The notes under the pieces are model-generated. The model searched no databases. It worked only from the letters and a program-made list of their open reading frames with translations, and was not told where the DNA came from. Positions 3,538-53,658 of a DNA stretch of 64,000 nucleotides are shown in pieces; position 1 is the stretch's first letter, and each line of letters starts with the position of its first letter. The position numbers were made by a program, and so were the translations under genes. Source of the DNA: Fusobacteria bacterium ZRK30 (GTDB lineage: Bacteria; Fusobacteriota; Fusobacteriia; Fusobacteriales; Fusobacteriaceae); contig CP102405.1 of NCBI GenBank assembly GCA_024628785.1, positions 1,736,001-1,800,000 on the forward strand, written 5' to 3'.

Positions 3538-3544
3538 AAAAAGT

Positions 3545-3620
3545 TTGGCAACTGGCTGTCATATCTATAGACTTAGACCCTTTAGTTTTGCGTCATAGGA
3601 TTTCCCCTACTTTGCCTTTT
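3545..3620 (-). ncRNA. Cyclic di-GMP-I (GEMM-I) riboswitch
   Basis: On the minus strand the conserved aptamer is complete: GGCAAA, a short hairpin capped by a GAAA loop (GUAGG/CCUAU), GACGCAAAAC, then AAAGGGUCUAAG, a short second helix, GACAGCC and the closing GUUGCC that pairs with GGCAAA/C. These are hallmark blocks of class I c-di-GMP riboswitches, which sense the second messenger in the nascent transcript. The aptamer begins about 20 bases after a good sigma-70 promoter and is followed at once by an intrinsic terminator. The only ORFs downstream before the next terminator are two micro-ORFs. Confidence 0.95.
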
Positions 3621-3648
3621 TCAGAATTATTTTTTCTTAATTATAGTT

Positions 3649-49898: not shown

Positions 49899-49928
49899 TT
49901 GACATAATTAAATGATATCTGATAGTAT
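49899..49928 (+). promoter_or_regulatory. Promoter of the argS leader
   Basis: TTGACA (49899-49904) and TAGTAT (49923-49928), spacer 18, about 48 bases before the first leader peptide. Confidence 0.75.
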
Positions 49929-49975
49929 TGATTCAAATAAAAAAGAGTAGAAAATTAATCTCAGGAGGATTTGTT

Positions 49976-50047
49976 ATGTTAATCAGGAGAATTAGGATGA
50001 GGAGAAGAAAACCAATAAACCCTATAATTTTAAAATGGCTTGATTAA
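49976..50047 (+). CDS. Arginine leader peptide L1 (23 aa)
   Basis: AGGAGG lies eight bases before the ATG. The peptide begins MLIRRIRMRRRK: six of residues 4-11 are Arg, encoded by AGG or AGA, followed by a neutral tail (PINPIILKWLD). This is the pattern of amino-acid attenuation leaders, where scarce charged tRNA stalls the ribosome on its codons. A short palindromic hairpin and two terminators follow, and the first long gene downstream is arginyl-tRNA synthetase, the matching target. Confidence 0.8.
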   Translation: MLIRRIRMRRRKPINPIILKWLD

Positions 50048-50072
50048 TCTAATAATTTTTTGTACAAAGATT

Positions 50073-50090
50073 TGGAAATAATTATTTCCA
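50073..50090 (+). other. Possible pause hairpin
   Basis: TGGAAATAATTATTTCCA is a perfect 18-base palindrome 25 bases after the L1 stop codon, in the place of a transcription pause hairpin of an attenuator. Confidence 0.5.
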
Positions 50091-50115
50091 GTGAATAAAA
50101 AAAGTTTATTAGCAG

Positions 50116-50146
50116 GTCAGCAATAATATTGCTGACTTTTATTTTT
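50116..50146 (+). terminator. argS leader terminator T1
   Basis: GTCAGCAAT-AAT-ATTGCTGAC, perfect 9-bp stem, followed by TTTTATTTTT. Confidence 0.85.
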
Positions 50147-50152
50147 AGAGAT

Positions 50153-50198
50153 AACCTGGTAGAAGTCCATTTTAAGTCGCTTATACCAGGTTTTTTTA
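50153..50198 (+). terminator. argS leader terminator T2
   Basis: AACCTGGTA / TACCAGGTT with a 22-base loop, followed by TTTTT. It begins only 7 bases after T1. Confidence 0.8.
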
Positions 50199-50236
50199 TT
50201 ATAAAGTTTTAAATAAATATTTTGAGGAGGACACAG

Positions 50237-50299
50237 ATGCTAAGGGAAAGTTTTAGGAAAAGTAAATTATACAATTTAATATTTTTTTATAACCGTTAA
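50237..50299 (+). CDS. Second leader peptide L2 (20 aa)
   Basis: GAGGAGG lies six bases before the ATG. The peptide starts MLRESFRKSK and ends NR; Arg codons AGG, AGG and CGT are at positions 3, 7 and 20, the last just before the stop. It is followed 20 bases later by terminator T3. A further possible ORF with paired AGG-AGA codons (GTG 50417 to TGA 50512) lies between T3 and argS, but its ribosome site is poor. Confidence 0.65.
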   Translation: MLRESFRKSKLYNLIFFYNR

Positions 50300-50318
50300 T
50301 ATTTTTGTTGATTCCCAG

Positions 50319-50351
50319 GAGTCTGCCAATTTTCGGTAGGCTCATTTTTTA
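50319..50351 (+). terminator. argS leader terminator T3
   Basis: GAGTCTGCC / GGTAGGCTC with two wobble pairs, loop about 7 bases, followed by ATTTTTT. Confidence 0.75.
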
Positions 50352-50528
50352 TACAAAAAAATAGGGTGAAACAGAGAGAAATAGAGATTTAAAGTAAAAC
50401 AATTCATAAATTGGAGGTGCAAACAGATAAACAATGTTGGAATATTAGGAGATTAAAGAACTTATACGGCATTAAAAAAATTCAGGGATTTAAGGAGACA
50501 AAAATAAATTGAAAAAGGAGGAAATACA

Positions 50529-52274
50529 ATTAAAACTTTAAAAAACTTTATAAATAAAACAATAGAAAATTCATTTTTAGAGAATGGATATGACTCAAGC
50601 TTAGGTGTAGTAGAGTATTCTTCAAACAATAAGTTTGGACAATTCCAATGCAGTGGATCATTAACTTTAGCAAAAAGAATAAAGGAAAACCCTATGTTGA
50701 TAGCTGAAAAAATTAAAATTTCTCTTGAGAAAACAAAATATTTTAACTCTGTTAATGTTTTAAAACCAGGTTTTATTAACTTAGTAATAAAAGATGAACT
50801 TTTAATGAATTATACAAAAAAAACTTATATACAATTAAATGAAGAAAGAGAACAAAATAAAGGTAAAATAATTATTGATTATGGGGGACCGAATATAGCG
50901 AAACCGTTACATGTGGGCCATTTACGGTCTGCTATTATAGGAGAAAGCTTAAAAAGAATAGGGAATTATATAGGTTATAATGTTATAGGAGATGTACATC
51001 TGGGAGATTGGGGGTTACAAATAGGTTTAATTATGTGTGAAATGAAGGAAAGAAATCCTTCTTGGTGTTATTTTAATGATAATTTTAACGGCTTATATCC
51101 TACTAAGTCACCATTTACAATTGAAATTTTAGAAGAAATATATCCTTTTGCTTCCATAAAATCTAAAAAAAATTCTAAGTTTTTAACTGAAGCTAAAAAA
51201 GCAACAAAAGATTTTCAACAAGGAAATAAAGGATTGAAAGAGTTGTGGTCACAAATTCTAGATGTTTCTATCAATGATTTGAAAAAAAATTATTCAAATC
51301 TAAATGTTAATTTTGAACTTTGGAAAAAAGAAAGCGATGTTCAAAAATATATACCTCAAATTATTAAATATTTAAAAGATAAAAACTATTCTAAAGTTAG
51401 TGAGGGTGCTGTTGTTGTTCCTGTTAGTTTCAATGACGATAAAAGAACTATCCCTCCATTTATGTTGGTAAAAACAGATGGAGCAACCTTATATTCAACA
51501 ACCGACTTAGCTACAATAGTTGAAAGAGAGGAACAATTCACTCCTCAAGAAATTATTTATGTTGTTGATAAAAGACAAGAGTTACATTTTGAACAAGTTT
51601 TTAGATGTGCATATAAAACAAAGTTGTTTCCTGAAAATAAAAGGTTATCTTTTATTGGATTTGGAACTATGAATGGAAAAGATGGCAAACCTTTTAAAAC
51701 AAGGGATGGTGGTACTCTTAAGCTTTCTGATTTTTTGATTACTGTTGAAGAAAGTGTTAGAAGCAAAATGTTACAAAGTAAAAAAGAATATAATGAAGAA
51801 ACTATGAAAAAAATTTCTTTAGCTGCTATAAAATATGCTGATCTATCTAATCAGCCTCATAAAGATTATATATTTGATATTAGAAAATTTACTTCATTTG
51901 AAGGAAATACTGGGCCATATATCTTATATTCATTAACTAGAATCAAATCTATTTTAAACAAATCAACAACAAAGGATTTAACTTTATTAACGTTAGAATC
52001 GCCTAATAGTGAAGTAGAAAGACAGTTATATTTAGAATTAACAAAGTTTGAGGAAGTTATAAATCAAAGCTTTGAAATTTATTCTCCACATAAAATTTGT
52101 CAATATATTTACACCATATCTAATTTATTTAATAGTTTCTATCATAAAACAAATATCTTAAATGAAAAAGATTTAAAGCAAAAAAAATCTTGGTTACAGC
52201 TTTTAAAAATTACAGAAAAAAACTTAGAAATATCCTTAAACTTATTAGGATTAGAATCTGTTGATAAAATGTAA
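50529..52274 (+). CDS. argS: Arginyl-tRNA synthetase, apparent AUU start
   Basis: The protein (about 581 residues) charges tRNA(Arg). It has the N-terminal Add1 domain (FINKTIENSFLENGYDSSLG ... FGQFQCSGSLTLAKRI ... PGFINLVI), the HIGH motif as NIAKPLHVGHLRSAIIGE, the KMSK-equivalent loop GKPFKTRDGGTLKL, and an all-helical anticodon domain with NLFNSFYH and LLGLESVDKM. The first in-frame ATG is 50694, which would delete half of Add1. Upstream of it the frame stays open with strong homology back to ATT 50529, which lies seven bases after AAGGAGG; no ATG, GTG or TTG occurs in between, and a stop is at 50505. So AUU is the likely start, a rare and poorly used codon. Confidence 0.88.
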   Translation: MKTLKNFINKTIENSFLENGYDSSLGVVEYSSNNKFGQFQCSGSLTLAKRIKENPMLIAEKIKISLEKTKYFNSVNVLKPGFINLVIKDELLMNYTKKTYIQLNEEREQNKGKIIIDYGGPNIAKPLHVGHLRSAIIGESLKRIGNYIGYNVIGDVHLGDWGLQIGLIMCEMKERNPSWCYFNDNFNGLYPTKSPFTIEILEEIYPFASIKSKKNSKFLTEAKKATKDFQQGNKGLKELWSQILDVSINDLKKNYSNLNVNFELWKKESDVQKYIPQIIKYLKDKNYSKVSEGAVVVPVSFNDDKRTIPPFMLVKTDGATLYSTTDLATIVEREEQFTPQEIIYVVDKRQELHFEQVFRCAYKTKLFPENKRLSFIGFGTMNGKDGKPFKTRDGGTLKLSDFLITVEESVRSKMLQSKKEYNEETMKKISLAAIKYADLSNQPHKDYIFDIRKFTSFEGNTGPYILYSLTRIKSILNKSTTKDLTLLTLESPNSEVERQLYLELTKFEEVINQSFEIYSPHKICQYIYTISNLFNSFYHKTNILNEKDLKQKKSWLQLLKITEKNLEISLNLLGLESVDKM

Positions 52275-52282
52275 ATTAAGTT

Positions 52283-52319
52283 AAAGTCTATTTAGATTTT
52301 TCTAGATAGGCTTTTTTTT
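52283..52319 (+). terminator. Terminator after argS
   Basis: AAAGTCTATTTAGA / TCTAGATAGGCTTTTTTTT. Paralogous to the terminator at 49159-49195, with about 60 similar bases following. Confidence 0.85.
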
Positions 52320-52503: not shown

Positions 52504-53658
52504 ATGGAAAAGAAAATATTATTTACTTCGGAGTATGTATCACCGGGACATCCAGATAAAATTTCAGATCAGATATCAGATGCAGTATTAGATGTCTGCT
52601 TAAAGGGTGATCCAAATTCCAGAGTAGCCTGCGAAGTTTTCTGCACAACTGGGCAGGTTGTGGTTGGAGGAGAGATTACAACCAGTAGTTATGTGGATGT
52701 TCAGAAAATTGTAAGGGAAAAGATAGATGAGATAGGATATGAGGAAGGGATGGGGTTTGATTCAAATTGCGGAGTGATAAACTTAATTTGTTCCCAGTCA
52801 CCTGATATTGCAATGGGTGTCGATAAAGGTGGAGCAGGAGATCAGGGAATAATGTTTGGAGGAGCTGTCAGAGAAACTCCGGAGCTTATGCCCCTGGCAT
52901 TAGTTCTCTCTAGGGAGATTATTAAGAGATTGACTCAAATGACTAGGTCAAAGGAAATTATCTGGGCAAGACCTGATGCCAAATCCCAGGTAACCCTGGC
53001 CTACGATGAATGCGGGAATATTGATTGTGTTGATACAGTGGTAGTGTCTGTACAGCACCACCCGGAAGTGACACAGGAGGAGATCCATAAAACAATTATA
53101 GAGGAGGTAATCAACCCTGTTCTGAAAAAATATAAAATAGATCCGGCAGATGTTAAAAACTACCATATTAATCCTACAGGAAGATTTGTAATAGGGGGAC
53201 CCCATGGAGATGTAGGACTTACAGGAAGAAAAATTATTGTGGATACCTACGGGGGATACTTCAGACATGGAGGAGGAGCATTCTCCGGAAAAGATCCTTC
53301 CAAAGTAGATAGATCAGCAGCATATGCAGCAAGGTGGGTTGCAAAAAACATCGTAGGAGCAGATCTTGCAGAAAAATGTGAGGTACAGCTGTCCTATGCA
53401 ATCGGTGTAGCAGAGCCAATCTCTATAAAGATCGATTCTTTCGGGACAGGTAAAATCAGTGACATAGAGATGGCTGATATTGTAAAAGATACCTTCGATC
53501 TTACCCCTAAGGGAATAGAAAATGACCTTGAATTGAGAAGAGGTAAATTTAATTATCAGGATTTAGCTGCATTTGGTCATATTGGAAGAACAGACATAGA
53601 TCTTCCCTGGGAAAGATTAAATAAAGTAGACCTGGTAAACTTTCAGCTGAAAAAATAA
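52504..53658 (+). CDS. metK: S-adenosylmethionine synthetase
   Basis: The 384-residue enzyme makes S-adenosylmethionine from methionine and ATP. Signatures are [23 protein letters not shown] at the N-terminus, [27 protein letters not shown] (the GAGDQG loop), [10 protein letters not shown]-type [35 protein letters not shown], and the C-terminal DLPWER. All of the enzyme is present. GGAGATG precedes the ATG. nifU follows after 24 bases, so the two form an operon. No SAM riboswitch motif was recognised upstream. Confidence 0.97.

Follow-up and report, generated by a model that had tools for sequence, protein, structure and literature searches.

A duplicated arginine-operon attenuator probably controls an apparently foreign second arginyl-tRNA synthetase gene in Fusobacteria bacterium ZRK30

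Introduction

The best-known cases of leader-peptide attenuation are those of Proteobacteria, Actinobacteria and some Firmicutes. Here we describe a putative arginine attenuator that precedes a second arginyl-tRNA synthetase (ArgRS) gene, argS, in Fusobacteria bacterium ZRK30. The leader region under study comprises positions 49899-50528 of the window, the whole 64,000-nucleotide (nt) stretch of contig CP102405.1 that was analysed.

Leader-peptide attenuators are known for the synthetase genes pheST, trpS and leuS (PMC1262725), and the attenuator uORFC-8-2 has been described for cysS (PMC8632094). These systems resemble the window leader in having a short open reading frame (ORF) with cognate codons, alternative RNA structures and a synthetase gene downstream, whereas the window leader stands apart in its amino acid (arginine), its back-to-back terminators, an extra ORF-terminator module and a second, apparently foreign synthetase gene as target. 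The case closest in history is that of bacilli, where a His leader peptide precedes hisZ and the duplicate gene hisS* and the authors raise the capture of an attenuator by the duplicate gene (PMC2965389). There, duplicate synthetase-type genes share a leader peptide; the window case differs in concerning arginine, in occurring in the Fusobacteriota and in having a recognisable source, an argC leader together with a relic of argC.

In gamma-proteobacteria (Salmonella), the speF leader ORF, orf34/SpeFL, contains two consecutive Arg codons, and arginine is sensed via ribosome pausing (PMC6386406). Like the window leader it is a short ORF with Arg codons that would report arginine through the ribosome, but it acts via Rho, RNase G and masking of a ribosome site, whereas the window has intrinsic terminators, an unrelated peptide and another target. 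T-box riboswitches are used for arginine genes elsewhere (PMC1262725); they sense tRNA charging before synthetase and biosynthesis genes, whereas in the window leader, which has no T-box, sensing would be performed by the translating ribosome. The open-access literature searched, which is not all of the literature, contained no account of an arginine leader-peptide attenuator from Fusobacteriota.

Results

Architecture of the leader

Comparison of the leader with its relatives indicates that a duplicated arginine-operon attenuator very probably controls a horizontally acquired second ArgRS gene. All elements of the leader lie on the forward (+) strand. A promoter scan placed TTGACA at 49899-49904, which is aligned in 7/7 homologous leaders compared, and gave two options for the second element, GATAGT (16-nt spacer) or TAGTAT at 49923-49928 (18-nt spacer, with TG upstream, TG-TAGTAT). 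A perfect Shine-Dalgarno sequence (SD; AGGAGG, 49963-49968) precedes leader ORF1, MLIRRIRMRRRKPINPIILKWLD (49976-50047, 23 codons), in which codons 4, 5, 7, 9, 10 and 11 are Arg codons, all AGG or AGA; Arg thus takes up 6/23 codons, versus 3.5% of the codons in the window's genes. Segment 1, GUUAAUCAGG (49978..49987), lies at the ORF1 start and includes Arg codon 4, whereas segment 2, UGGCUUGAUUAAU (50036..50048), overlaps the ORF1 stop codon (50045-50047) and can pair with segment 1 or with segment 3. A palindromic hairpin (50073..50090) forms the apex of the antiterminator stem described below. Terminator T1 (50113..50147, stem 50114-50138 plus U-tract) supplies segment 3 as its 5' arm (50113-50119) and segment 4 as its 3' arm, and is directly followed by terminator T2 (50153..50199, stem 50153-50192). 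A second leader ORF with three Arg codons, ORF2, MLRESFRKSKLYNLIFFYNR (SD 50225-50230; ORF 50237-50299), and terminator T3 (50319..50351, stem 50319-50343) complete the leader.

Folding gave stabilities of -13.2 kcal/mol for T1 (z -5.1), -14.0 kcal/mol for T2 (z -4.9) and -14.3 kcal/mol for T3 (z -5.2), and 0/300 dinucleotide shuffles were as stable in each of the three tests. The original prediction, made from the sequence alone, had named the promoter, ORF1 with six Arg codons in positions 4-11, the hairpin, T1/T2, ORF2, T3 and argS, and all of them were located where it had placed them. It had also seen no T-box, and the Rfam scan agrees: neither a T-box, which would show a stem I specifier loop and a T-box antiterminator, nor any other Rfam family was found in the leader, whether at the gathering score or with E allowed up to 5.

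Origin and distribution of the leader

A DNA search of the phylum retrieved leaders 70-87% identical to this one before the argC-argJ-argB-argD operons of this genome (G000) and of G056, G058 and G054, and no homologue ahead of any other argS gene. In G042, the argC operon has a diverged version upstream, and a second copy stands ahead of an amino-acid ABC transporter, after which come argH and argG. The homology between the window and the argC loci spans the promoter through to the first argC codons (window CAGATAAACAATGTTGGAATATTAGGAG, argC CAGATGAAAAATGTCGGAATATTAGGAG). Hence, the further ORF with an AGG-AGA pair (50411-50512), listed in the original prediction, does exist but is a scar of argC and no third leader: alignment with the argC starts of this genome and of congeners identified the SD and first codons of argC at 50410..50451, with ATG changed to ATA at 50427-50429. 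An arg operon was the source of the leader, which came to be attached to a foreign argS. Its identity to the argC leader of the same genome (86.8%) and to that of G056 (85.7%) is too similar to distinguish duplication in its own lineage from import from a sister species.

The argC gene of this genome (G000:C2; L122 6305-6988, - strand) has lost 118 residues in frame, the NPGCYP motif included, and the neighbouring hisZ and hisF-like ORFs also appear truncated. Owing to this loss, the genome may not synthesise arginine by the argC route; in that case, arginine supply and an inducible second ArgRS would be more important to the organism.

By inspection, Arg codons within the first 14 ORF codons precede 26/30 argC genes. 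A strict automatic test, requiring an SD, at least three Arg codons and at least two terminators, was passed by 18/30 argC upstream regions, by 0/30 canonical argS upstream regions and by 1/400 random windows, the latter partly taken from the 64-kb window itself. A covariance model of the antiterminator-T1 stretch, scanned over 98 genomes of the phylum, detected more Arg-rich leaders before amino-acid ABC permeases, a Na+/H+-antiporter-family protein and argH; weaker matches without an Arg leader (e.g. G017, G018, G034) are probably due to chance. The genes behind Arg leaders are argS here, and argCJBD(F), an arginine-type transporter and argH elsewhere. Between genera the RNA differs, and what persists is the Arg-rich ORF with tandem terminators (T1 plus T2 in 42/48 loci examined). 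Outside the window, an Arg-rich ORF2 occurs only in the argC leaders of G000, G056, G058 and G054; the ORF2-T3 module, with its Arg codons, is kept only in this genus and G054, and T3 is found in the same five leaders.

The original prediction had made its case dependent on conserved Arg codons and terminators in related genomes, and both are conserved at arg genes. Its picture of an argS attenuator holds in part: a putative attenuator does lie before argS, but the system appears to be the arginine-operon attenuator of the phylum, placed before a horizontally acquired second argS in one genome only. A stranded arginine leader was observed in G021 (L184, about 1430-1800), where just the first few argH codons and then a lactate dehydrogenase gene come after an Arg leader with tandem hairpins.

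The second argS gene

Two argS genes are present in the genome, and the one in the window (50516..52274, + strand; SD AGGAGG at 50516-50521) is the second copy. The synthetase gene predicted downstream of the leader is thus a real argS, with its copy number and apparent start corrected: ATT at 50529-50531 is aligned with the Met of relatives, lies 7 nt after AGGAGG and is the probable start codon, as in infC, although it could alternatively be a mutated or misread ATG. The canonical argS, 64.5% identical to that of Fusobacterium vincentii (next best about 41%), has no Arg leader of this kind upstream. Among the other ArgRS sequences retrieved from the 98 genomes of the phylum, none is more than 38% identical to the window ArgRS, and no second full-length argS was found in congeners. 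The window ArgRS is 52% identical to Lachnospiraceae enzymes, and a tree groups it on the Lachnospiraceae side with a long branch; most Lachnospiraceae genomes checked carry one argS. From these comparisons we take the gene to be foreign and horizontally acquired; it may safely be called Lachnospiraceae-type, a label that extends to the type and not to the donor. No matching Arg leader was present upstream of argS in 12 Lachnospiraceae relatives inspected, so that the leader was probably not co-transferred with the gene. No relative of the gene was found in viral contigs, and no match to the leader in plasmids.

These data bear on a quite unlikely alternative, in which the attenuator works at the argC operon and the window copy is a duplicated remnant that provides argS with a promoter but no useful regulation. 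The single genome with the leader-argS junction, the decayed argC start at that junction, the poor argS start codon (ATT) and the decay of the genome's own argC operon would all fit such a remnant. Nevertheless, ORF1, its six Arg codons, segments 1-4, T1, T2, ORF2 and T3 are intact despite 13% divergence from the genome's own argC leader, as are the promoter, the SDs and the argS frame, and three strong terminators would silence argS unless they were overcome. Control of argS by the duplicated attenuator is the reading that we prefer.

Alternative RNA pairings

Folding of the nascent RNA as far as the T1 5' arm gives a long antiterminator hairpin in each of the nine closest leaders (-17 to -22 kcal/mol). 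In the window this structure spans 50036-50119 (z -2.9; 0/300 shuffles as stable), carries the palindromic hairpin at its tip and is closed at its base by pairing between UGGCUU (50036-50041), at the ORF1 stop, and the T1 5' arm. Segment 1, GUUAAUCAGG, pairs over 10 base pairs with CUUGAUUAAU in five homologues (-10 to -11.7 kcal/mol), and CUUGAUUAAU shares positions with the stop codon as well as with the antiterminator arm; in G043 and G044 the sequence is another one and the 1:2 pairing idea is the same. Pairings 1:2, 2:3 and 3:4 are those of a classical attenuator: the arm formed by the ORF1 end and stop has two mutually exclusive partners, the ORF start and the T1 5' arm.

Covariation was observed in T1 (five pairs changed on both sides, 96.6% of cells paired) and in the palindromic hairpin (five pairs altered on both sides across 8 distinct sequences). 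The T1 5' arm remains complementary to the nearly invariant UGGCUU through G-U tolerant changes, and over 27 loci the segment paired better with its own T1 arm than in shuffled cross-locus combinations (p = 0.0096). When a ribosome was masked at the stop codon, the probability of the antiterminator base was 0.0, whereas with the ribosome on the Arg codons it was 0.59 until T1 was complete. The leader has the translatable Arg-rich ORF, the intrinsic terminators before the gene and the arginine-pathway target genes of an attenuator, and folding predicts an antiterminator that excludes the terminator and depends on the position of the ribosome.

Several results weigh against this model. The base helix of the antiterminator shows G-U type changes only. 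In 9/9 leaders the T1 state is favoured over the antiterminator state at equilibrium, by 4-11 kcal/mol, and a stalled ribosome still leaves P(T1) at about 0.9, so that equilibrium folding alone shows no switch; as T1 prevails in every state, any switch must act kinetically. In several transporter and antiporter leaders, segment 2 is found 18-37 nt beyond the stop codon, outside the footprint of a ribosome halted there, and control would then have to come from the 1:2 pairing or from some other feature. Finally, the junction with argS is confined to one genome.

A relay in which the freed T1 3' arm holds T2 open, apparent by eye in nine leaders, gave p = 0.06 for own- versus cross-locus pairing and is not claimed. 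For T3, only weak and inconsistent antiterminator pairings were obtained, some of them with the ORF2 start region, which would be the wrong logic. Multi-stage attenuation, as originally predicted, consequently goes no further than the anatomy: the first module (ORF1-T1) has clear support for an antiterminator, and none was established for ORF2-T3.

Codon choice in the leaders

AGG accounts for 68/111 Arg codons (61%) in the argC-type leader set and for 36/48 (75%) in the other leaders, versus 21% of the Arg codons in the window and flanking genes. The binomial p of 5e-20 for the argC-type set is too small, because it counts related leaders as independent observations. According to the selective-charging theory, leaders favour the codon whose tRNA loses its charge most easily (PMC1183508). 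The AGG preference matches this prediction, and a tRNA-Arg(CCU) gene, which is present, would encode that isoacceptor. Alternatively, AGG may be kept as RNA sequence, since segment 1 includes it.

The codon bias also bears on arrest by the nascent peptide, in which the Arg-rich peptide itself would stall the ribosome on a ligand, as is thought for SpeFL/orf34 with ornithine, instead of codons being sensed. An R-x-x-R or RRIR-like core recurs in many leaders and a C-terminal IILKWLD is kept in four, but the non-Arg residues vary freely between targets, and in G054 the tail of ORF1 is frameshifted while the tail RNA, UUUAAAAUGGCUUGA, is preserved, so that RNA and not peptide is what has been kept. 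An AGG bias is not expected of a sensor at the peptide level either, and ORF1 and two relatives gave no Pfam match, the PF10940 (SpeFL/orf34) core included, at E up to 10, a test limited by very short peptides. We consider peptide arrest highly improbable. An arginine-binding riboswitch with incidental ORFs would agree with the conserved RNA blocks from ORF1 to T1 within close relatives, but is the most improbable explanation, as these blocks are accounted for by segments 1-4, no Rfam family matches, and the RNA changes from genus to genus, unlike the Arg-rich ORFs and tandem terminators, which are retained.

Other observations

Short ORFs with 4-5 consecutive His codons (e.g. MFNQMFAIRHHHHH) precede hisZ in this genome and in two of its congeners (L122 8706, L123 7351 and L124 6870, all + strand), suggesting that his genes may also be under leader-peptide attenuation. 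Downstream of argS, a putative terminator seen by eye (52285..52319, + strand) would make the gene a monocistronic unit. Synteny with the congener G055 is lost at about 52363, upstream of the genome's second metK (52504-53658, + strand), which matches the second copy of G055 at 95% and the other at about 76%. A c-di-GMP-I riboswitch is located at 3544-3626 (- strand, 78 bits).

Discussion

Ribosome-mediated attenuation by arginine, proposed in the original prediction, is strongly supported by the comparison with the leaders of relatives. The computed anatomy, conservation, exclusive pairings, T1 covariation, AGG bias, shared targets and argC relic suggest a course of events in which ribosome stalling, antitermination in vivo and the overcoming of T2 and ORF2-T3 are the steps that we infer. 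Transcription would start near 49935, and a ribosome would translate ORF1. When Arg-tRNA is charged, chiefly the AGG-reading isoacceptor, the ribosome would reach the stop codon and cover segment 2; when ORF1 is not translated, segment 2 would pair back onto segment 1. In both situations T1 would form, with T2 as backup, and transcription would terminate. When Arg-tRNA is uncharged, the ribosome would stall at codons 4-11 and occupy segment 1, leaving segment 2 and the T1 5' arm to form the antiterminator (50036-50119). The polymerase would then proceed toward argS, and more tRNA-Arg charging capacity would result.

A wider reading is offered tentatively, as a possibility that we hold less likely than the control of argS itself: a phylum-wide arginine regulon may sense the AGG-reading tRNA-Arg, two serial modules (ORF1-T1/T2 and ORF2-T3) may act as a two-step gate in one lineage, and the cassette may be transferable to new genes, such as a foreign argS.

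If true, an arginine attenuator of the Fusobacteriota would explain how arginine synthesis and uptake are coupled to tRNA charging in these AT-rich anaerobes. The CCU-anticodon tRNA-Arg gene, together with leaders that prefer AGG, would offer a natural test of the selective-charging theory. The window itself would be an evolutionary snapshot, in which an apparently foreign synthetase gene stands behind a host-type attenuator that has retained the scar of its original operon.
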